12,490 nucleotides of DNA, taken from Anaerolineales bacterium (GTDB lineage: Bacteria > Chloroflexota > Anaerolineae > Anaerolineales > Villigracilaceae). A program made the position numbers and the translations under genes. This document shows, piece by piece, positions 1,562 to 11,044 of this stretch (position 1 is its first letter; each line of letters starts with the position of its first letter). The notes beneath the pieces were generated by a model. It did not search any database and had not been told where the DNA came from. It worked only from the letters and a program-made list of their open reading frames with translations. The stretch lies in contig JAQTWR010000040.1 of the NCBI GenBank assembly GCA_028689195.1, positions 1 through 12,490 on the forward strand, read 5' to 3'.

Positions 1562-1595
1562 TTTATATGACATTGGGCAACACTTTATATGACAT
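1562..1595 (+). promoter_or_regulatory. Tandem 12-bp direct repeat in the divergent control region
   Basis: TTTATATGACAT occurs exactly at 1562-1573 and again at 1584-1595, a 22-bp period, close to two helical turns. Each copy contains ATGNCAT, a small palindrome, so two dimers could bind on the same DNA face. The pair lies between the -10 of the XRE-cupin gene and the presumed promoter of the ArsR-type gene. An operator for the XRE-cupin protein is the simplest reading, by inference from position. Confidence 0.5.
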
Positions 1596-1599
1596 ACCG

Positions 1600-1627
1600 T
1601 ACTATTGTGACAGTTTGTACAATAGTA
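1600..1627. promoter_or_regulatory. 28-bp inverted repeat, probable ArsR-type operator
   Basis: TACTATTGT (1600-1608) is exactly the reverse complement of ACAATAGTA (1619-1627), giving 9-bp perfect arms around a 10-bp centre. The repeat lies 45 bp before the ArsR-type start and overlaps a possible promoter: TTGTGA at 1605-1610 and TATGAT at 1626-1631, with a short 15-bp spacer. Position and symmetry fit autorepression by the ArsR-type regulator. The promoter hexamers are weak matches. Confidence 0.55.
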
Positions 1628-1672
1628 TGATGAGGCGGCAAATATGCGTTTATACGAATGTAGGTAATTATC

Positions 1673-2002
1673 ATGATTGTAGCCACTCTTCAGCAAGAAA
1701 TCACCCAACTCGAAGCGAACTTCTGCGCGGCGCTGTCAGACCCCAACCGTTTGCTGATACTTTACGCGCTCAACGAAGGCGCGCGGAATGTGACCGAGCT
1801 TGCAAACGACCTTGGTCTAAATCAGCCCACCACGTCGCGCCACCTCAAAGTCCTGCGCGAACGCGGTCTTGTCCACACCGTCCGCACGGGGACAGTCATT
1901 ACCTACCACCTTTCGGATTCAAGACTCATTCAGGCGCTTGACCTGTTGCGAAATGTTATGCGCGAACGACTTACGCGTCAAGCAAACCTGATCAAAAACT
2001 AA
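1673..2002 (+). CDS. ArsR-family winged-helix transcriptional regulator
   Basis: This small (109-residue) cytoplasmic regulator has the ArsR/SmtB fold: helix 1 region 'FCAALSDPNRLLILYAL' (17-32), HTH with recognition helix 'QPTTSRHLKVLRERGLV' (51-67) and a beta-wing 'HTVRTGTVITYHL' (68-80). AGGT at 1662-1665 lies 7 bases before the ATG. The next gene, the octaheme cytochrome, starts 11 bp after its stop, so it is almost certainly co-transcribed with and probably controls the cytochrome/transporter operon. ArsR proteins usually repress and release on binding a metal or on thiol modification. Only one cysteine is present (C18, in helix 1), and the position where sulfide/persulfide sensors of the BigR/SqrR type carry a cysteine reads 'ILYAL', so the two-cysteine mechanism of that group is not available. 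It also lacks a CXC metal site. The inducer is therefore unknown. Confidence 0.88.
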   Translation: MIVATLQQEITQLEANFCAALSDPNRLLILYALNEGARNVTELANDLGLNQPTTSRHLKVLRERGLVHTVRTGTVITYHLSDSRLIQALDLLRNVMRERLTRQANLIKN

Positions 2003-2013
2003 GGAGAATGTGA

Positions 2014-3450
2014 ATGAAGAAACGCTTTCCACTCTGGATTGTAGGACTAGTCGGCATTTTGGCGCTGATCCTTGTCCCAGTCCTTTATTTCATGCCGCGC
2101 GCCCAATCGAAGAACGACCCGGCGGCGCACATACCCGTCAAAGCCGTACACGTAGACCATAAAGATATTATCAAAGGCGAGTTCAAAACGGGACAAGACG
2201 TTACCCGCGCCTGCCTTGAATGTCACGAAGATTCGGCGACGCAGTTTATGAAGACCACGCACTGGACATGGGAATCAAAAGCATTCGACGTCCCGTGGCG
2301 CAACGAGCCTGTCACCATCGGCAAAGTCAACCAGATCAACAACTTCTGTATCGGCACGCAAGGCAATGAGAACAAGTGTATGTCCTGCCATGCGGGCTAC
2401 GGCTGGGAAGAGGGTAAAAAAGCCGAGCAATCTAATCCAGAAAACGTAGACTGTCTCGCCTGCCATGCGGATACCGGCGCGTACGGCAAGGGTCTGTTCG
2501 GCAATCCCGCCGAGGGCGTTGACCTTTTAGCCGCCGCGCAAAGCGTTCGCTCTACCACGCGCGAAAACTGCGGCAAATGCCACTTTGACGGAGGCGGCGG
2601 TAACGGCGTCAAACACGGCGACCTTGACGAAAGCCTGTATTTCCCCGACAAGAATCTCGACGTCCACATGGGCGGCGAAAACAATATGCAATGCACCGAT
2701 TGCCACTGGACAAAAGATCACCAAATCTTAGGTCGCATGGTCGCGGACAACTACACTATTGACCCAACAGAACAAGTTTCGTGCGAAGAGTGCCACGTCA
2801 ACCAGCAGCACAAGGACGAGCGCATCAATACGCATCTTTCGGCGGTGGCGTGTCAAACTTGCCATATTCCCGCCGTCGCGCTCGAAGACCCGACCAAAGT
2901 CTATTGGGACTGGTCGCAAGCCGGGCAGGAAGGACGCGAAGAAGATCACTTCACTTATCTCAAAATCAAGGGCGAGTTCATCTACGAAAAGAATTTCACC
3001 CCCACCTACCTTTGGTTCAACGGCAATAACGAATATCGTTACATCCTCGGCGACCCGCTGGGGAAAGACGGAATCACTTACATCAACAAACCTGCGGGCG
3101 ATATCAAAGATAAGACCGCGAAGATATTCCCCTTCAAAGCCCATATCGCCAAGCAGCCGTATGACGTAAAAAACAATTACCTGCTTCAGCCCATCACTTC
3201 GGGCAAAGGCGGCTTCTGGACAACCTTTGAATGGGACAGCGCCTTCAAACTCGCCGAACCCATCGTAGGACTTAAATACAGCGGTCAATATGATTTCACC
3301 ACAACTTATATGTACTGGGCGACCACGCATATGGTACAACCCGCCGATCAAGCCTTGCAATGCGATTCGTGCCACAGCGCATCTGGACGCCTGGATTGGG
3401 AAGCGCTCGGCTACCCCGGCGACCCAATTGAATGGGGCGGAAGGAAGTAA
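2014..3450 (+). CDS. Octaheme c-type cytochrome, tetrathionate reductase (OTR) family
   Basis: This 478-residue multihaem enzyme has eight CXXCH motifs, starting at C67, C122, C147, C186, C227, C257, C280 and C450. Motif spacing, the segment 'NNFCIGTQGNENKCMSCHAGYGW' near haem 2, and the long haem-free stretch between motifs 7 and 8 match the octaheme tetrathionate reductase family known from Shewanella. That enzyme reduces tetrathionate, and also nitrite and hydroxylamine in vitro, at a haem with a lysine ligand; K158/K159 after motif 3 are possible equivalents (K159 is my guess). Residues 7-27 form a hydrophobic helix without a clear AXA cleavage site, so the protein is probably anchored with its haems outside. 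AAGGAG lies before the ATG. A fused cytochrome c/b gene follows after 18 bp and is the likely electron donor. The family is confident; the physiological substrate is not proven by sequence. Confidence 0.88.
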   Translation: MKKRFPLWIVGLVGILALILVPVLYFMPRAQSKNDPAAHIPVKAVHVDHKDIIKGEFKTGQDVTRACLECHEDSATQFMKTTHWTWESKAFDVPWRNEPVTIGKVNQINNFCIGTQGNENKCMSCHAGYGWEEGKKAEQSNPENVDCLACHADTGAYGKGLFGNPAEGVDLLAAAQSVRSTTRENCGKCHFDGGGGNGVKHGDLDESLYFPDKNLDVHMGGENNMQCTDCHWTKDHQILGRMVADNYTIDPTEQVSCEECHVNQQHKDERINTHLSAVACQTCHIPAVALEDPTKVYWDWSQAGQEGREEDHFTYLKIKGEFIYEKNFTPTYLWFNGNNEYRYILGDPLGKDGITYINKPAGDIKDKTAKIFPFKAHIAKQPYDVKNNYLLQPITSGKGGFWTTFEWDSAFKLAEPIVGLKYSGQYDFTTTYMYWATTHMVQPADQALQCDSCHSASGRLDWEALGYPGDPIEWGGRK

Positions 3451-3468
3451 AGAAGGAATTGGCTAATT

Positions 3469-6159
3469 ATGAATAAATATAAACTCCTCACAATTATTGG
3501 ACTTCTGCTCCTCATCCTTGCGCTTGGCATCGGGACGGCTCTCGCCTCGCCCGAACCTGCGACAACGACGCAGGCATCCCCATTTCACCCGAATTTCAAG
3601 TTGCTCGACAAAGACGGCGCGAATGTTTTAGAAAGCGCAAACGCCGTTTCGACCATGAAAACTTGCGGGCAATGCCACAATACAGACTTCATCGTATCTC
3701 ACGCGTTTCACTCCGATCTCGGTTTGAGCGAGTACGACGCGAAAAGCAAGACGCTCGATACCAGCAACGGACTCTTCGGTCAGTGGAATCCGCTTTCCTA
3801 TCGCTATCTTTCGGCGGCAGGCGACGAGCGCCTCGACCTCTCTACCGCCGAGTGGCTCATGCTTAACGGCGACCGCGTCGTCGGCGGCGGACCCGCGACC
3901 ACATCCCGCGGCGGAAAATCGCTCGCCGAAATAAAAGCGGACAAGACGAATCCCGAAGCCGCGATTCTAAACGCGGGAGGGGATTCCTCCGCGTGGGATT
4001 GGAACAAATCAGGCACGATGGAAATGAACTGCTTCCTGTGTCATCTTGAAACGCCCAACACCGCCGCGCGCGCAGAAGCGATCCACGCGGGAGATTTTGG
4101 CAACGCCAACACCGCCACGCTGCTGGATTTGAAAGTCGTCAGCAAGTCTGCCGATGGCTGGGTCTGGAGCGCGGACGCGTTCAACGAAAACGGCGAACTT
4201 AAAAGCGAGATGATTGGTCTTCAAGACCCGACCAACGCAAACTGCGCGGCGTGCCACGGCGAAGTTCATCCGAATTCAGGCGACCCGCTTACCGTCAGTC
4301 AATGCGACTTGAATTATCCGCAAACCGCGACGACAGGTCAGGTTGTCAGCGGACAGCGCATCAACGCGTCGGGTATGAATATTTCAGGCAAAGACGAACT
4401 GAACCGCTCGTGGGACATCCACGCGGAGCGCGAATTGCAATGCACCGACTGTCACTATGCGTTGAACAATCCTTCGCACGCGAGCGAGATGCAGAGTTCC
4501 AACCCCAAGCATCTCATCTACGACCCGCGCTCTCTGGAAATTGGCGAATACCTGCAAAGACCAGATCACAACTTCGCGCGCGGACAAAGCGCGCAGTTCA
4601 ACGTCGCGCCTGAATATAAAGGCACCATGCGCCGCTGCGAAAACTGTCACGATGCAGGCACGGGTCACGCAGATTGGCTGCCCTATGTAGATACGCACAT
4701 GGAAGTAATCGCCTGCGAAACCTGCCATATCCCGCAGATGTACGCTCCCGCGATACAAACTTACGATTGGACAGTGATCGCCACCGACGGTCAAGCCATC
4801 GAGTCTTGTCGCGGCGTGGAAGGCGCGCCCAACCAGACGACTTCGCTCGTCACGGGGTACAAACCCATCCTGCTGAATCGCACAAATATTGACGGCAAGA
4901 CATTGCTCGCGCCGTACAACTTGATCACATCCTTCTATTGGGTTTACGACGACGCGAACGGAAGCAAACGCCCTGTCCGCGTAGTTGATCTCAAAGCCGC
5001 GTATTTGGATAACGGAAATTACGCGAAGGATATTGTCGCCGCGTTCGACGCGAACGGCGATGGAAACTTGAGCGGCGCGGAACTCGTGATCGACTCGCCG
5101 GAAAAAGAAAGCGCGGTCAAAACCAAACTTGCCGCGCTCGGGTTGAACAATCCGCGCATCGAAGGCTTGACGCAGCCGTACAGCATCAATCACAATGTCA
5201 CGCGCGGCGAAAACGCGGTCAATGATTGCAAATCCTGCCACAACGAAGAATCGCGCATGACGCAATCCATCAAACTCGCAGACCACGCCCCCGTCATGCC
5301 TGTATTCGATACGGGCAACAACGTCAACGGGTCGGGCGAATTTGTGAAGGGCGAAGACGGCGCGCTGTACTACCAGCCCAGCCCCGCAAAAGACAAGATT
5401 TACGTCTTCGGCTCCAGCCGCATCAATTGGATTGACTGGCTCGGCGCGTTGATGTTCGCGGGCTCGTTATTAGGCGTGCTGGGTCATGGAACCATGCGCT
5501 ACATGGCGGCGCGCAAACAAAATAAACCGCGCGGAAAAACCGAACGCGTTTATATGTACGAACCCTATCGCCGCTTCTGGCATTGGCTGCAAACCGCGTC
5601 CATCGTATTCCTGCTTTTCACGGGTTTGGTCATTCACCGCCCCGATATTTTTGGCGCGTTCTCGTTCCGCGGCATCGTGACGGTGCATAACGTACTGGCG
5701 GTTATTTTGGTAATCAACGCCGCGCTATCCCTGTTCTATCACGTTACGACGGAAAAACTCCGCGAGTTCATCCCGCATCCTTACGGTTTCTTCGACGACG
5801 CGATTGTGCAGGCGAAGTATTATGTCGGCGGAATATTCAAAGGCGAAGAGCATCCGTTCGAGAAGTTGCCGAGCAGCCGCATGAATCCCATTCAGAAGGC
5901 TACGTATTTCGTCATCTTGAATGTGCTGCTGCCGCTTCAAATTATCACCGGCGCGTTGATGTGGGGCGTGCAAAAGTTCCCGGCATTTGCACACGCGCTC
6001 GGCGGATTGCCCTTCCTCGCGCCTTTCCATTCCTTTGTCGCGTGGGCGTTTGGAACGTTCATCCTCGTCCATGTATATATGACCACTACAGGCGCGACCC
6101 CGCTGGAGGCGATACGCGGCATGGTGACTGGATACGAAGAAGTGGAAGTGCATGAGTAA
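3469..6159 (+). CDS. Fused heptaheme cytochrome c - membrane cytochrome b (thiosulfate reductase/b561-like) protein
   Basis: This 896-residue protein combines an exported multihaem part with a membrane quinol-oxidising part. Residues 5-26 form a signal peptide with a likely cut after ALA (26). Seven CXXCH motifs begin at C66, C188, C259, C325, C390, C416 and C587. Between motifs 6 and 7, residues 527-538 read DANGDGNLSGAE, a complete EF-hand calcium loop. From about 652 there are five hydrophobic helices (about 655-673, 703-723, 735-757, 811-833, 854-875) with histidines H705, H723, H740, H758, H854 and H868 available as haem b ligands. The ending 'HVYMTTTGATPLEAIRGMVTGYEE' is typical of the Ni,Fe-hydrogenase/thiosulfate-reductase cytochrome b family. 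The likely role is transfer of electrons from the quinone pool to the octaheme enzyme encoded 18 bp upstream. AAGGA at 3453-3457 serves as the ribosome site. No eighth CXXCH exists. Confidence 0.88.
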   Translation: MNKYKLLTIIGLLLLILALGIGTALASPEPATTTQASPFHPNFKLLDKDGANVLESANAVSTMKTCGQCHNTDFIVSHAFHSDLGLSEYDAKSKTLDTSNGLFGQWNPLSYRYLSAAGDERLDLSTAEWLMLNGDRVVGGGPATTSRGGKSLAEIKADKTNPEAAILNAGGDSSAWDWNKSGTMEMNCFLCHLETPNTAARAEAIHAGDFGNANTATLLDLKVVSKSADGWVWSADAFNENGELKSEMIGLQDPTNANCAACHGEVHPNSGDPLTVSQCDLNYPQTATTGQVVSGQRINASGMNISGKDELNRSWDIHAERELQCTDCHYALNNPSHASEMQSSNPKHLIYDPRSLEIGEYLQRPDHNFARGQSAQFNVAPEYKGTMRRCENCHDAGTGHADWLPYVDTHMEVIACETCHIPQMYAPAIQTYDWTVIATDGQAIESCRGVEGAPNQTTSLVTGYKPILLNRTNIDGKTLLAPYNLITSFYWVYDDANGSKRPVRVVDLKAAYLDNGNYAKDIVAAFDANGDGNLSGAELVIDSPEKESAVKTKLAALGLNNPRIEGLTQPYSINHNVTRGENAVNDCKSCHNEESRMTQSIKLADHAPVMPVFDTGNNVNGSGEFVKGEDGALYYQPSPAKDKIYVFGSSRINWIDWLGALMFAGSLLGVLGHGTMRYMAARKQNKPRGKTERVYMYEPYRRFWHWLQTASIVFLLFTGLVIHRPDIFGAFSFRGIVTVHNVLAVILVINAALSLFYHVTTEKLREFIPHPYGFFDDAIVQAKYYVGGIFKGEEHPFEKLPSSRMNPIQKATYFVILNVLLPLQIITGALMWGVQKFPAFAHALGGLPFLAPFHSFVAWAFGTFILVHVYMTTTGATPLEAIRGMVTGYEEVEVHE

Positions 6160-6167
6160 ATAGTTAT

Positions 6168-6259
6168 CGTCACTGCGAGGAGGGCTTTAGCCCGACGAAA
6201 CAATCTCATAAATGATTGAGGAGATTGCATCGTCGCAACAAACGCTCCTCGCAATGACG
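6168..6259. repeat. REP-like 92-bp imperfect palindrome inside the operon
   Basis: The outer arms CGTCACTGCGAGGAG (6168-6182) and CTCCTCGCAATGACG (6245-6259) pair at 14 of 15 positions. Inside them, CAATCTC (6201-6207) pairs with GAGATTG (6221-6227), and GGGCTTTAGCCC (6182-6193) forms its own small hairpin in the left arm. The GTCATTGCGAGGAG...CAATCTC wording is that of dispersed intergenic palindromes seen in many environmental bacterial genomes. It fills nearly all of the 118-bp gap between the cytochrome fusion and the first YeeE/YedE gene. In RNA it would form a long stem that could protect the upstream mRNA or lower downstream expression; there is no U-run, so it is not a classic terminator. 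Confidence 0.75.
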
Positions 6260-6277
6260 TAGGAAAAAGGAGTATCA

Positions 6278-6823
6278 ATGACTACTCAAACAAGAAAATC
6301 AATATTCAACCGTCCCGAAAAAGCCTATGTACATCCGTACTTTGGCGGGATCGTTCTGGGAGTTGTCCTGTTCCTCGCGTTCTTACTAACGGGCAACGGA
6401 CTTGGATCTTCAGGCGCGACCAGCCGCCTCGACGCGGCTCTCGTAGACGCGATTTCGCCCTCGCATGTAGACAATAATCCCTACCTGCTAAAAATGGCGG
6501 GCGGAGATAAAAATCCGCTGGATGACTGGATCGTCCCTGTGTTCTTTGGCGCGCTGTTCGGCGGCTTCACGTCCGGCGCATTCAACGGGCGGCTCAAACT
6601 AACGACAACCAAGGGACCCAATATCTCCGACCGCACGCGCTGGTTGATGGCTTTCCTCGGCGGCGTGATCTTCCTTTACGGAGCGCGCATGGCGCGCGGA
6701 TGCACGTCGGGTCAGGCGCTTTCTGGCGGCGCGACGCTCTCGGCGGGTTCGTGGGTGGTGATGTTTGCCATCTTCGGCGGCGCGTACGGCGTTGCATATT
6801 TTGTGCGGAAGTTCTGGTTGTAA
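6278..6823 (+). CDS. YeeE/YedE family sulfur transport protein, first half-size subunit
   Basis: This 181-residue integral membrane protein belongs to the YeeE/YedE (sulfur transport, TsuA-like) family. Hydrophobic helices lie near residues 22-45, 84-101, 122-138 and 155-176. The family signature 'ARMARGCTSGQALSGGATLSAGSW' places a conserved cysteine at C142, of the kind that handles thiosulfate in characterised TsuA. Full-length members contain two such halves; here the halves are separate genes, this one and the next, 32 bp apart, so the working transporter is probably a heteromer. AAGGAG at 6267-6272 sits 5 bases before the ATG. Co-location with a tetrathionate-reductase-type enzyme suggests movement of thiosulfate or a related sulfur compound. 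Direction of transport and exact substrate are inferred only from family and context. Confidence 0.88.
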   Translation: MTTQTRKSIFNRPEKAYVHPYFGGIVLGVVLFLAFLLTGNGLGSSGATSRLDAALVDAISPSHVDNNPYLLKMAGGDKNPLDDWIVPVFFGALFGGFTSGAFNGRLKLTTTKGPNISDRTRWLMAFLGGVIFLYGARMARGCTSGQALSGGATLSAGSWVVMFAIFGGAYGVAYFVRKFWL

Positions 6824-6855
6824 CGTAGAACGCGCAAACATTCAGGAGAATCAAA

Positions 6856-8157
6856 ATGAACTTTCCCCTCCCATCTTTTATAGCGGTCAGCGCAGCCAAC
6901 CCGTGGACGTATGTCCTCTTCGGCGCGATTGGCTTTGCGTTTGGCTTCACGCTCGAAATGTCCGGCTTTGGCGATTCGAGAAAACTCGCGGCGCAATTCT
7001 ATTTCACCGAGATGACCGTTCTCAAGGTCATGTTCACCGCGATTGTCGTAGCGATGGTTTTGCTCTTCGGCGCGGCGGGACTCGGCATCCTCGATTTCAG
7101 CCAGGTCTGGGTCAACCCCACTTATCTCGCCTCAGGCATTTTAGGCGGACTCATCATGGGCGTTGGATTCATCATCGGCGGGTTCTGCCCCACCACCTCG
7201 CTCGCGTCCGCTTCCACAGGCAAAATTGACGGTATGTTCTTCATGCTCGGCGGATTTGTCGGCGCGTTCCTCTTCGGCGAAACGGAACAATACTTCACCA
7301 ACTGGTACAACAACGCGGGCTATTATGGTCGCGTTACGCTCGACCAGGTTTTCGGAATTCCCGTCGGCGCGGTGGTTGTGCTTGTCATCCTCATGGCGCT
7401 CTTCATGTTCTGGGGCGGCGAACAGTTGGAACGCATCTTCGGGAACAAGGATTTGAGCAAAGAGCCAAAAATCCGCCCGATTGGCGCGGCGGTTTTGGTT
7501 GTCGCGGCGCTGGCGGTCTTCTTCATTGGCAGCCCTTCGCTCGAACAAAAGTACAACAAGGTCAAATTCACGCGCACCGAAACCATTCCGCAGGAAAACG
7601 CAGACCCCATCGTCAACACATTGATTTACAGCGCGGATGATATGCTCGCGAATCGACTCGCGTTCGTCACGCCCGCCGAAGCCTTCAAAACGAAATACAT
7701 CCAATCCTTGAACCCTGTGTACCTCGATGTGCGCCCCGAAGCGGATTACAACTTGTATCACATCGAAAACGCGGTCAACGTGCCGCTGGATCGTCTCGCG
7801 GAAGTTATCCCCGTTTTGTTGACCGAACCGCCTGCGAATACGGTCTTCATCTTGATGAGCAACGACGAAGCCGCCGCCGTGCAAGCGTGGAAAACGCTCG
7901 TCGCGTCGAGCGTGCAAAACGTCTACGTTCTTGAAGGCGGCGTAAACAACTGGATCGCGTTCTTCGGCAAGGACGACAAGACGCTTCAAGCCAATCCGAA
8001 CGCGGGCAGCGACCAACTTGGATACACCTTCCCTGCGGCGCTGGGCAACCGATATGAATCATGCGACCCCAATCCGCAAGAATACGAAACGCTGGAATTT
8101 GAAACCAAGATCATCTTGCAGTTGAAACGCGATAAATCAGGCGGCGGCTGCGGATAA
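6856..8157 (+). CDS. YeeE/YedE second half fused to an extracytoplasmic rhodanese-like domain lacking the active-site cysteine
   Basis: The 433-residue protein has two parts. Residues 16-190 form a YeeE/YedE half with helices near 17-37, 55-79, 91-117, 125-142 and 165-187 and the conserved 'GGFCPTTS' motif (C111), complementary to the RGCTSG motif of the preceding gene. A further helix (about 207-225) follows a lysine-rich loop, which by the positive-inside rule puts the remainder outside. Residues 272-372 are a rhodanese fold: 'VYLDVRPEADYNLYHIENAVNVP' and 'VYVLEGGVNNW' are clear, but the position of the catalytic cysteine loop reads 'FILMSNDEAAA', with M334 where the cysteine is expected. 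It is therefore unlikely to be a sulfurtransferase and may bind or gate substrate. Cysteines remain at C403 and C432, the latter in a GGGCG C-terminal tail. AGGAG lies 7 bases before the ATG. It is the last gene of the operon. Confidence 0.85.
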   Translation: MNFPLPSFIAVSAANPWTYVLFGAIGFAFGFTLEMSGFGDSRKLAAQFYFTEMTVLKVMFTAIVVAMVLLFGAAGLGILDFSQVWVNPTYLASGILGGLIMGVGFIIGGFCPTTSLASASTGKIDGMFFMLGGFVGAFLFGETEQYFTNWYNNAGYYGRVTLDQVFGIPVGAVVVLVILMALFMFWGGEQLERIFGNKDLSKEPKIRPIGAAVLVVAALAVFFIGSPSLEQKYNKVKFTRTETIPQENADPIVNTLIYSADDMLANRLAFVTPAEAFKTKYIQSLNPVYLDVRPEADYNLYHIENAVNVPLDRLAEVIPVLLTEPPANTVFILMSNDEAAAVQAWKTLVASSVQNVYVLEGGVNNWIAFFGKDDKTLQANPNAGSDQLGYTFPAALGNRYESCDPNPQEYETLEFETKIILQLKRDKSGGGCG

Positions 8158-8163
8158 GGCGGC

Positions 8164-8204
8164 GAGCAGTGAGCAATAAGCAATAAGCAGTGAGCAGTAA
8201 GCAG
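8164..8204 (+). repeat. Six tandem 7-bp repeats, consensus RAGCART
   Basis: After the stop at 8157 the sequence runs GAGCAGT, GAGCAAT, AAGCAAT, AAGCAGT, GAGCAGT, AAGCAG: five full units and one that lacks its last base, varying only between A and G at two positions. It lies directly before the terminator stem. No function is evident; it looks like a slippage-prone microsatellite-type array. Confidence 0.7.
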
Positions 8205-8238
8205 AAAAAAACCGTGCGAGGTTCGCGCGGTTTTTTTT
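8205..8238. terminator. Strong bidirectional rho-independent terminator
   Basis: ACCGTGCG (8211-8218) pairs with CGCGCGGT (8224-8231), an 8-bp GC-rich stem with one G-T wobble and a 5-base loop. A run of seven A (8205-8211) precedes it and eight T (8231-8238) follow, so it works on both strands. It ends the plus-strand sulfur operon (stop 8157) and the minus-strand MFS gene (stop 8242). Confidence 0.9.
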
Positions 8239-9688: not shown

Positions 9689-11044
9689 ATGAAAACTTTA
9701 TCCATCCACGCAAAAGTAATTATCCTGATTGCTATTATTTCCTTGCTAAGTCTCGGCGCAAGCGCGCCCCGTCAAGCGGATAGGATTGTATTCGCAGTCA
9801 TCGGCGATTATGGATTGGCGGGACAACCCGAGGCGGACGTCGCAAACCTCGTCAAAAGTTGGAATCCCGACTTCATCGTCACCGTTGGAGATAACAATTA
9901 TCCGAACGGCGCGGCGTACTCAATTGACCAAAATATCGGTCAGTATTATCACAATTATATTTTCAAATATAAGGGGAAGTACGGCGGAGGCTCGGACACA
10001 AGACGCTTCTTCCCCGCGCTGGGAAATCACGATTGGCATGAAAGCAGCGCAAACGCGCACACAAACTATTTCAATTTGCCGGGCAATGAACGGTTCTATG
10101 AGTTCACATACGGCAGTCTTCACTTCTTTATACTAGACAGCGTCAAAGACGAACCCGAAGGCAATTCGCCAACCTCACCGCAAGCGAAGTGGCTTCAAAA
10201 AGCGTTGACCGCCTCCACATCACAGTTCAACATTGTGGTTACGCATTACGCGCCGTACTCTTCGGGCGAGCATGGCTCGGTATCCTTCATGCAGTGGCAG
10301 TACAAAGAGTGGGGCGCGGATGTTGTCCTCGCGGGGCACGACCATATTTACGAAAGGCTGATAGTTGACGGACTGCCGTACTTTGTGAACGGAGCGGGCG
10401 GAGATTCTCTTTACGGATTTAGACCCGCCCTGCCCGAAACCCAATTCCGCTATAACCAGAACTACGGCGCGATGCGTGTGGAAGCAAGCGGCGCGTCGCT
10501 GAAATTTCAGTTCTTCACGCGCGACAATATCTTGATGGACGAGTATACGCTCGGCGAAATTTTGCCAGCCACGCCCACGGAATTCCCCGCCCCCACCGCG
10601 ACGATAACGCCCACAGACTTCTTCACATCCACGCCGACGACAGTCCCGCCCACAGATTTCCCCACACCCACCGCGACCATTGCGCCCACAGAATTCATCG
10701 CGCCGACCGCAACGATAGCGCCCACCCTTTTTGTCCCGCCGACAGAAACCAGTTCGCCCGCGCGAATTCTTCCGCCTGTTTTATTCAGCCCGCCCGACAA
10801 TGCGACCATGAGCGCGCATTATAAATTTAATTGGGAAAGGGTCTATAACGCGACGAGGTATCACATCGAGATTGACAACCACGCGGATTTTTCCAGCCCC
10901 GAATGGTCTTCATGGAGACGCGACCCCGAATACCCGATTTCATCCATGAACAGAAAGACAACCTACTACTGGCATGTCCGCGCGAAAGACATGGATGGGA
11001 ATTGGAGCGAGTGGTCGGCGGTCTTCAAAATGAGCGTGCCGTAG
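9689..11044 (+). CDS. Secreted purple acid phosphatase-like metallophosphoesterase with PT-rich linker and Fn3-like domain
   Basis: This 451-residue exported protein begins with a signal peptide (residues 1-26, ending ASA). The calcineurin-like metallophosphoesterase domain spans about 32-288 with the full set of metal and catalytic motifs: GDYG (D40), GDNNY (D68 to Y71), GNHD (N113, H114), the VVTHYAP histidine H186, and AGHDH (H217, H219). The GDNxY and GHDH forms resemble tartrate-resistant/purple acid phosphatases, which hydrolyse phosphate monoesters outside the cell. Residues 293-357 are a proline-threonine-rich linker made of about five 12-residue units. Residues 360-451 form a beta-rich fibronectin type III-like domain ('THYHIEI'-type strand at 'ATRYHIEID', 'TTYYWHVRAKDMDGNWSEWS'), which usually mediates binding to surfaces or sugars. 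It is divergent from the MFS gene and convergent with the VWA gene. The substrate is inferred from the fold. Confidence 0.88.
   Translation: MKTLSIHAKVIILIAIISLLSLGASAPRQADRIVFAVIGDYGLAGQPEADVANLVKSWNPDFIVTVGDNNYPNGAAYSIDQNIGQYYHNYIFKYKGKYGGGSDTRRFFPALGNHDWHESSANAHTNYFNLPGNERFYEFTYGSLHFFILDSVKDEPEGNSPTSPQAKWLQKALTASTSQFNIVVTHYAPYSSGEHGSVSFMQWQYKEWGADVVLAGHDHIYERLIVDGLPYFVNGAGGDSLYGFRPALPETQFRYNQNYGAMRVEASGASLKFQFFTRDNILMDEYTLGEILPATPTEFPAPTATITPTDFFTSTPTTVPPTDFPTPTATIAPTEFIAPTATIAPTLFVPPTETSSPARILPPVLFSPPDNATMSAHYKFNWERVYNATRYHIEIDNHADFSSPEWSSWRRDPEYPISSMNRKTTYYWHVRAKDMDGNWSEWSAVFKMSVP
10565..10759 (+). repeat. Degenerate ~36-bp tandem repeat encoding the PT-rich linker
   Basis: Five consecutive units encode PTEFPAPTATIT, PTDFFTSTPTTVP, PTDFPTPTATIA, PTEFIAPTATIA and PTLFVPPTETSS: a 12-residue period with one 13-residue unit. 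It joins the phosphoesterase domain to the C-terminal beta domain. The linker boundaries are approximate. Confidence 0.75.

Follow-up and report, generated by a model that had tools for sequence, protein, structure and literature searches.

A conserved operon that joins an OTR-family octaheme cytochrome and a heptaheme/cytochrome b fusion to a two-part YeeE/YedE transporter in Chloroflexota, with a possible role in sulfur oxyanion respiration and uptake

This account concerns a five-gene operon within a window of 12,490 nucleotides (the whole stretch of DNA analysed), which is contig JAQTWR010000040.1 of assembly GCA_028689195.1, from an Anaerolineales bacterium. The operon encodes an ArsR-type regulator, an octaheme cytochrome c of the OTR (octaheme tetrathionate reductase) family, a heptaheme cytochrome c domain fused to a cytochrome b, and two proteins each corresponding to one half of a YeeE/YedE transporter, the second of which carries a pseudo-rhodanese and ends in a nearly invariant GGCG tail. 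The operon and the identities of its parts are well supported, and the proposal of a first-pass annotation that the five genes form one conserved unit is upheld by the retention of a four-gene core in 48 of 57 loci. As to its function, we lean, if only slightly, towards an operon that serves the respiration and uptake of a sulfur oxyanion, in which a quinol-driven reduction of the tetrathionate type would take place outside the cell and its product would be imported. The features discussed below are the following.

1565..1665, plus strand: conserved regulatory region (consensus of 49 upstream regions)
1673..2002, plus strand: ArsR/SmtB-family regulator, 109 aa, single Cys18 (PF01022, NF033788)
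2014..3450, plus strand: octaheme cytochrome c, OTR family, module subclade (TIGR04315, 1sp3 alignment, clade and residue census)
3469..6159, plus strand: heptaheme OTR-related cytochrome c domain fused to cytochrome b, PhsC/FdnI-like (CXXCH, PF01292)
6160..6262, no strand assigned: dispersed palindromic repeat (own-genome matches)
6278..6823, plus strand: half YeeE/YedE protein, C-terminal-half type, PmpA-like, pore Cys142 (PF04143)
6856..8157, plus strand: half YeeE/YedE protein, N-terminal-half type, PmpB-like, with Cys111, last membrane helix, pseudo-rhodanese and GGCG tail
8143..8154, plus strand: GGCG tail codons (aa 430-433), candidate sulfur-carrying arm (alignment, homologue ends, model pLDDT, i.e. 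predicted local distance difference test)
8204..8238, plus strand: intrinsic terminator (fold energy)

All five genes described in the first-pass annotation are present on the plus strand, and the families it assigned agree with matches to Pfam, NCBIfam and motifs; its attribution to Chloroflexota is likewise backed by the three nearest OTRs (86-87% identity), which come from Anaerolineales, Anaerolineaceae and a Chloroflexi metagenome-assembled genome (MAG). The intergenic gaps are, in order, 11, 18, 118 and 32 bases, with a sequence resembling a ribosome-binding site ahead of each next gene, and the unit is closed, as had been claimed, by a strong terminator, the hairpin at 8204-8238 being confirmed by folding (-21 kcal/mol, z -5.05, with 0 of 200 shuffles equally good); it is not among the matches of a pattern-based terminator scan. 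The gaps were also searched for two operator-like motifs. The 118-base gap before the YeeE genes was considered as a conserved break and rejected as such, since it contains the dispersed repeat and is shorter than 100 bases in 54 of 61 loci (reading-frame starts being taken in this comparison as the first possible, hence some negative values). The repeat itself, which has at least 52 match rows in its own genome (itself included, some copies on both strands, and with the best 40 of 70 candidates scored), separates the cytochrome and transporter genes and is not a conserved part of the module.

The evidence for a single conserved unit comes from one genome scan with patterns taken from the window's OTR, which reaches close relatives only and yielded 57 named OTR loci. 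In 48 of these the core is present, with OTR, fusion and the two YeeE halves all on the same strand, and in 34 of the 48 ArsR is directly upstream. Seven of the nine incomplete loci end at a contig end (L059, L075, L079, L084, L086, L088 and L099), while L080 is rearranged, its fusion and both YeeE halves lying elsewhere in the same genome (L140) beside an OTR stub, and L095, from Planctomycetota (OTR 50%), has a contig that ends 271 bases past the OTR and lies outside the module clade. An adjacent ArsR is missing from 14 complete loci, eight of them proteobacterial; of the rest, L065 and L094 start at or within the OTR gene, in L058 the ArsR is there and is overlapped by an over-long OTR reading frame, and L089, L091 and L100 have ArsR matches downstream (L089 having another upstream, cut by the contig start). 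Among the complete loci the contig end cuts the last gene in L054, L060 and L065, and L060 has a gap of 958 bases from OTR to fusion. Dozens of genomes share this gene order, which takes the grouping beyond chance.

A sample of 301 genomes from the phylum gives a similar picture, in that an OTR over cut-off occurs in 12, the full fused half-YeeE occurs in the same 12, and three further genomes with weaker matches to the OTR model (best 283.6 bits, in G106) have no fused half-YeeE; with the window's own genome excluded, the fused gene is present in 11 of 11 genomes with an OTR over cut-off and in 0 of the 289 others (Fisher p 2.7e-20, for genomes that are not independent). The first-pass annotation had named rare co-occurrence of the YeeE pair with the cytochromes as a finding that would refute it, and what was found is the opposite, together with one case of joint decay of the module in G096 (L139, G096:C18:20000-36000), where decayed pieces of the fusion and of both YeeE halves persist with no OTR match. 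Eleven of the 12 module-bearing genomes belong to one family, in which 11 of the 18 drawn genomes carry the module and the other seven are without both full genes; of these seven, G297, G028 and G248 have a separate half-YeeE, and G096 has the decayed pieces just described. The link between YeeE pair and cytochromes nevertheless holds for the module's OTR subclade and not for OTR at large: among 250 genomes from the order of Parasulfuritortus, 23 have an OTR over cut-off and 22 of these 23 are without the fused half-YeeE, which (at E up to 1e-30) was found only in Parasulfuritortus itself. Because of these 22 genomes we conclude that the pair goes with one OTR subclade, and a general tie of YeeE to OTR is ruled out. 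Searches of plasmids gave five distant OTRs (38-39%) and two partial YeeE matches. Separately, on plasmid pFER4 of Paracoccus ferrooxidans (L122) a suf/cysteine desulfurase cluster is followed immediately by a gene of the OTR family, and the annotation of the 13.4 kb shown includes neither a cytochrome b nor a YeeE.

The octaheme protein scores 548.4 bits against TIGR04315 (cut-off 375), its residues 48-467 covering profile positions 2-440, and it has eight CXXCH motifs; the solved relative 1sp3, an OTR structure dating from 2004, is matched at E 3e-135. Its C112, N197 and K200 align with C64, D150 and K153 of 1sp3, of which K153 and C64 are active-site residues, and this Cys and Lys are kept in 82 of 82 OTR rows (64 of 64 from the module). 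It should be noted that the 64 module OTR rows, and the alignments of 55-66 rows used for the other proteins, include five contigs reached twice, recognised by their equal lengths (L036/L053, L037/L064, L038/L055, L039/L098 and L041/L077), while alignments A1, A2, A3 and A4 are of 25, 28, 23 and 19 chosen rows respectively. In OTR the active-site Lys is described as a heme ligand (PMC11024163). At the position of Asp150, 63 of the 64 module rows (the window included) have Asn, the deepest row, L034, keeping Asp, whereas 17 of 18 non-module rows have Asp, the exception being L123 with Asn; this comparison is our own criterion and not a published one. The module OTR thus shares with the octaheme tetrathionate reductase (SO4144, 1sp3, TIGR04315) its eight CXXCH hemes and its active-site Lys and Cys, but differs in forming its own clade (64/64 rows) and in having Asn for Asp150, and it differs from the OTRs in 22 of 23 genomes of the Parasulfuritortus order in standing beside the heptaheme/cytochrome b fusion and the YeeE pair.

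A FastTree analysis places the 64 module OTRs in a single clade (support 1.0) that excludes the 18 other sequences, and in a quick IQ-TREE tree of 58 rows (30 of the 54 Chloroflexota rows, all 10 proteobacterial module rows and the 18 others, with long branches flagged) the module branch has an SH-aLRT (Shimodaira-Hasegawa-like approximate likelihood ratio test) support of 92. The 10 proteobacterial rows group together (FastTree 1.0; IQ-TREE 100) within the Chloroflexota rows, their exact place being weakly supported (FastTree values of 0.282 for the nearest node and 0.907 for the next one out), and forcing the 30 Chloroflexota rows together is rejected (approximately unbiased test, p-AU 0.021). 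Since the proteobacterial rows nest in this way and the monophyly constraint is rejected, transfer from a Chloroflexota-like source fits, and the module occurs in Anaerolineae-type Chloroflexota and, apparently by transfer, in proteobacteria. A second OTR is present in G305, at 530 bits, and in four more of the 10 proteobacterial hosts (G301, G307, G309 and G310), where it scores higher than the module's own, at 629-641 bits. As an aside, when G313 and G315 are taken with those four module hosts the second OTRs span 624-646 bits as against 541-550 for the module OTRs, and in G315 both lie on one contig, less than 1 kb apart on opposite strands.

The product of 3469-6159 contains CXXCH seven times and ends in a cytochrome b561 domain (PF01292), and its heptaheme domain is akin to OTR, a point absent from the first-pass annotation. 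At aa 527-538 is an EF-hand-like loop whose key residues (Asp, Asp/Asn and Glu) are retained in all of 28 rows; the structure model of the heptaheme domain is poor where hemes are missing (mean pLDDT 64.6). MmcA of Methanosarcina is likewise a seven-heme OTR relative, described as an electron carrier (PMC11024163), though in the module the domain is fused to cytochrome b, and against the MmcA model (TIGR04314) the fusion scores 51.3 bits, below the cut-off of 250. The pairing of an OTR with a membrane cytochrome b is likewise seen in Thermosulfurimonas dismutans (TDIS_1882/1883); the parts of that description available for comparison (PMC4911364) make no mention of a heptaheme fusion, of a YeeE pair or of an arm.

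The two transporter genes correspond to the two halves of one YeeE/YedE, 6278-6823 matching PF04143 positions 165-309 and 6856-8157 matching positions 10-186, and each has its pore cysteine (Cys142 in 59 of 60 rows, Cys111 in 58 of 58). The proteins are of 181 and 433 aa, the second having six hydrophobic stretches before a rhodanese domain (PF00581). The rhodanese fold named in the first-pass annotation is therefore present, but its reading as an active sulfurtransferase handling thiosulfate is rejected, the catalytic cysteine being missing in the rows examined: none lies between the DVR motif and GG-N in the 235 homologues, out of 240, in which that pattern was found, and no loop column has Cys in at least 15% of 58 rows. 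What the protein does keep is a different cysteine at its very end, Cys432, present in 57 of 58 rows (the remaining row being cut short); GGCG forms the end of 237 of 240 database homologues among the matches listed, and even in rows of only 41% identity it is unchanged, although the preceding residues vary. In the structure model the tail (423-433) has pLDDT below 50, and the matches found with that model were filled by rhodaneses, so that the membrane part was not probed by them. Judged from the distribution of charges, the pseudo-rhodanese and tail are probably outside the membrane, and the tail, missed by the first-pass annotation, resembles the arm of the sulfur carrier SoxY and is a candidate sulfur-carrying arm.

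Several known systems bear comparison with this pair. PmpA/PmpB and YedE1E2 are likewise two half-YeeE proteins with one pore cysteine each, and import of zero-valent sulfur is reported for YedE1E2 (PMC11582611, PMC10812762); as described in those sources they are of about 130 aa with four helices and no additional domain, whereas the module proteins are longer and one has an extra helix, the pseudo-rhodanese and the GGCG tail. TsuA (PDB 6leo) gives a weak profile match (A1 positions 23-115 to 6leo 6-95, E 0.013). It is described as a single chain with three conserved cysteines that works with TsuB (PMC11582611), in contrast to the module's two chains with one pore cysteine each and no TsuB-like gene in the window; on the TsuA models the 6278-6823 protein scores 27.0 of 400 (NF052577) and 22.6 of 645 (NF041049), and the 6856-8157 protein is not among the matches listed. 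SoxT with SoxYZ and the ArsR-type repressor SoxR likewise brings together a YeeE-like importer, an ArsR-type regulator and a GGCG-type tail (PMC11582611, PMC10451225), but in the module the tail is on the transporter itself and the regulator has one conserved cysteine, not two. Finally, the YTD cluster of sulfur disproportionators is defined by TusA-/DsrE-like genes beside YeeE (PMC13047784, PMC8528874), and no match to these was found among the ten window proteins scanned.

A further observation concerns the separate PmpB-like half YeeE of G028 and G248 (L115, L116), where an in-frame TGA stands exactly at the position of the pore cysteine (GY-stop-PGT, as against GYCPGT in L119 and L120), making it a candidate selenoprotein; one TGA is also seen in the match from G297 (L117). 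YeeE/YedE selenoproteins are on record already (PMC13188914).

The genomic surroundings of the module in some hosts favour a sulfur role. In L076 (a Lysobacterales MAG) and L079 (a MAG labelled Xanthomonas) it lies 3-4 kb downstream of soxA, soxX and soxB on the same strand, these three being over the NCBIfam cut-offs in both and soxY over cut-off in L076, while the L079 contig has a SoxY match further upstream; between the sox genes and the module are a FadL-type gene in both, half-YeeE-type genes and other frames. This neighbourhood is that of two proteobacterial loci, not all, and in L081 (Parasulfuritortus cantonensis strain LSR1), L074, L087 and L096 a Pfam scan gave no sulfur gene among ten flanking proteins. 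SoxY itself was detected in all 10 proteobacterial genomes that carry the module, with GGCGG ending the SoxY-region frames of the hosts in six of seven; none of 14 control genomes matched in the SoxY search, the functioning of the model being shown by the proteobacterial matches. Another tie between OTR and a SoxY-type carrier is recorded for lucinid symbionts, where soxY-S3/soxZ lie downstream of otr (PMC11237559). The sulfur role proposed in the first-pass annotation is thus favoured by the two gammaproteobacterial loci, while for its specifics the argument is set out below as what we infer.

Upstream of the operon, 49 regions share a strongly conserved stretch (1565-1665 in the window), which contains two TGACA elements at 1568 and 1590, a palindrome TACTATTGT-N10-ACAATAGTA at 1600-1627 (in relatives CACTATTGTAC-N6-TCACAA) and, just ahead of the start codon at 1642-1662, the ArsR-type inverted repeat ATATGCGTTTATACGAATGTA. 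The palindrome is one that we take to resemble a site of the CRP/FNR superfamily; in its exact form it was rejected as a general operator, only a looser form matching, at 15 of 70 loci. Allowing up to one mismatch, the ArsR-type site occurs once in each of 8 of the 12 module genomes, always at the module, and was not found in the other four, as compared with one match across all 12 for the reversed control pattern; as the pattern was derived from the same upstream regions, the informative part is that there is no second site. The regulator (PF01022; NF033788 at 82.4 bits, cut-off 55) has Cys18 in 54 of 55 rows, with one gap, and no other column has Cys in at least 15% of rows. The sulfane-sulfur repressors BigR, SqrR and SoxR are described as having two conserved sensing cysteines (PMC10451225), and because the module ArsR has one it does not fit this type, which was rejected as a candidate. 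It scores 51.9 bits on the BigR model (cut-off 155) and 64.4 on that of TsoR (NF045707, cut-off 115), a regulator for which no paper was found among the open-licence papers listed.

Taking these strands together, the favoured scheme would run as follows. The fusion would oxidise quinol through its cytochrome b part, and electrons would pass outward through the heptaheme domain to the OTR-family enzyme, this being the most natural path, whereupon the Lys-ligated active-site heme would convert tetrathionate (or a close polythionate or thiosulfonate) to thiosulfate. The product, thiosulfate or sulfane sulfur, might then be captured by the cysteine in the flexible GGCG tail that the pseudo-rhodanese carries outside the cytoplasm, and handed to the pore formed by the two YeeE halves, while ArsR would repress this operon alone, from the site just before its own gene, until released by some signal, perhaps via its single invariant cysteine. 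We infer, then, that the substrate is tetrathionate, that the reaction runs reductively and that thiosulfate is the cargo, and the same holds for the membrane side of the tail, the electron path, the chemistry of the arm, the repression and the inducer. The potential of menaquinone is about -80 mV. Reduction of tetrathionate from it, if menaquinone is the host quinone, would be favourable because the tetrathionate/thiosulfate couple is given as +198 mV (PMC8528874). A more specific version, which we hold only tentatively and think rather improbable as it stands, is that the octaheme enzyme passes a sulfur group straight to the SoxY-like arm, as a covalent thiosulfonate or persulfide, and that the arm then swings this group into the YeeE pore, making one channelled step of reduction and import; if that were true, the Asp-to-Asn change would be accounted for, because the natural substrate of this OTR would be arm-bound sulfur and not free tetrathionate.

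Several points weigh against the respiratory scheme. OTR has been termed an enzyme of cryptic function that reduces nitrite and hydroxylamine too (PMC11024163), the Asn for Asp150 may have changed the tetrathionate activity of the module OTRs, and for Caldithrix abyssi a set of predictions, tetrathionate respiration from an Otr gene among them, is reported as not borne out by growth tests (PMC5317091). On the import side, SoxY was found in 0 of 19 Chloroflexota genomes (12 with the module, 7 without), so that no Sox pathway that might use the imported sulfur is seen there, and TusA was not found in 4 of the 12 module hosts, two of them single-contig genomes, as compared with its presence in 5 of 7 non-module relatives; for this reason import into a TusA/TsuB route was rejected as a requirement. 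The loop after the last membrane helix has 3.2 Lys+Arg on average, so that outside placement is not clear-cut, and the fused protein has no match to the SoxY domain (PF13501, TIGR04488) in Pfam and NCBIfam scans and lacks the final Gly of the GGCGG of SoxY. These last two points, and the possibility that short Gly/Cys tails arise independently, are what would speak for a tail unrelated to sulfur carriage (a metal site, say, or a partner-docking tail, its likeness to the SoxY arm being due to chance), a view that we regard as doubtful given that, at identities as low as 41%, the tail is invariant and the stretch ahead of it is not, and that the tail sits on a relative of sulfur transporters, probably outside the membrane, beside a sulfur-type reductase.

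The main rival to the reductive scheme is the same machine run in the oxidative direction in SoxY-bearing hosts: thiosulfate or arm-bound sulfur would be oxidised outside to tetrathionate or sulfonate, electrons would enter the quinone, and the YeeE pair would import or sense sulfur, like SoxT. In the proteobacteria this direction could indeed operate, all ten hosts having SoxY, the module lying downstream of soxAXB in L076 and L079, and the YeeE-like SoxT being reported to import sulfur for oxidation (PMC11582611); it would nonetheless be uphill with menaquinone at the potentials given above, and none of the 12 Chloroflexota module genomes has a SoxY match. The oxidative reading seems to us unlikely. 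Less likely again, to our minds, is that the cytochromes form a nitrite/hydroxylamine reductase chain and the YeeE pair is a separate sulfur supply that merely shares the operon. The Shewanella OTR does reduce nitrite and hydroxylamine in vitro (PMC11024163), but the transporter is tightly linked, with one case of joint decay, sox genes are near the module in two hosts, and no nitrogen gene was found among the (few) flanking proteins scanned. That the genes are adjacent but unrelated, and held together by common descent in one bacterial family, is scarcely credible: that family does account for 11 of the 12 module-bearing genomes of the phylum, but the core survives whole both in proteobacteria and in a second family of the class (L034, whose OTR is 50% identical), and the sole rearranged case (L080/L140) keeps the fusion and both YeeE halves together.

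Each part of the module has known kin. The first-pass annotation knew of no described system with this exact gene set, and none was found in the accessible text of the open-licence literature, nor was any account of a GGCG tail on a YeeE protein found there; an OTR beside a cytochrome b is already on record from T. dismutans (PMC4911364). What OTR does in nature is unsettled (its function is called cryptic in PMC11024163), and the operon makes the question testable, connecting one OTR clade with a quinol-oxidising partner, with a sulfur transporter whose Cys tail is SoxY-like and, in two genomes, with nearby sox genes. It names the partner proteins, the class of substrate and a residue, Cys432, from whose chemical state the substrate should be readable. 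If the respiratory scheme is true it would mean sulfur respiration for uncultured Anaerolineae-type Chloroflexota, and it suggests that YeeE-family transporters can bear their own sulfur-handling arm.

As for the rest of the window, a Pfam scan gave no sulfur gene for the two proteins at its edges. Upstream of the operon lies a gene for a protein of Fe-S assembly type (454-795, PF01883), preceded by one (17-436) whose product has a weak match to SufR (24.3 bits against a cut-off of 178.8); divergent to the operon, on the minus strand at 887-1501, is a helix-turn-helix (HTH)-cupin regulator (PF01381, PF07883), and beyond the terminator 9689-11044 encodes a metallophosphoesterase (PF00149) with a Thr/Pro-rich linker in its translation.

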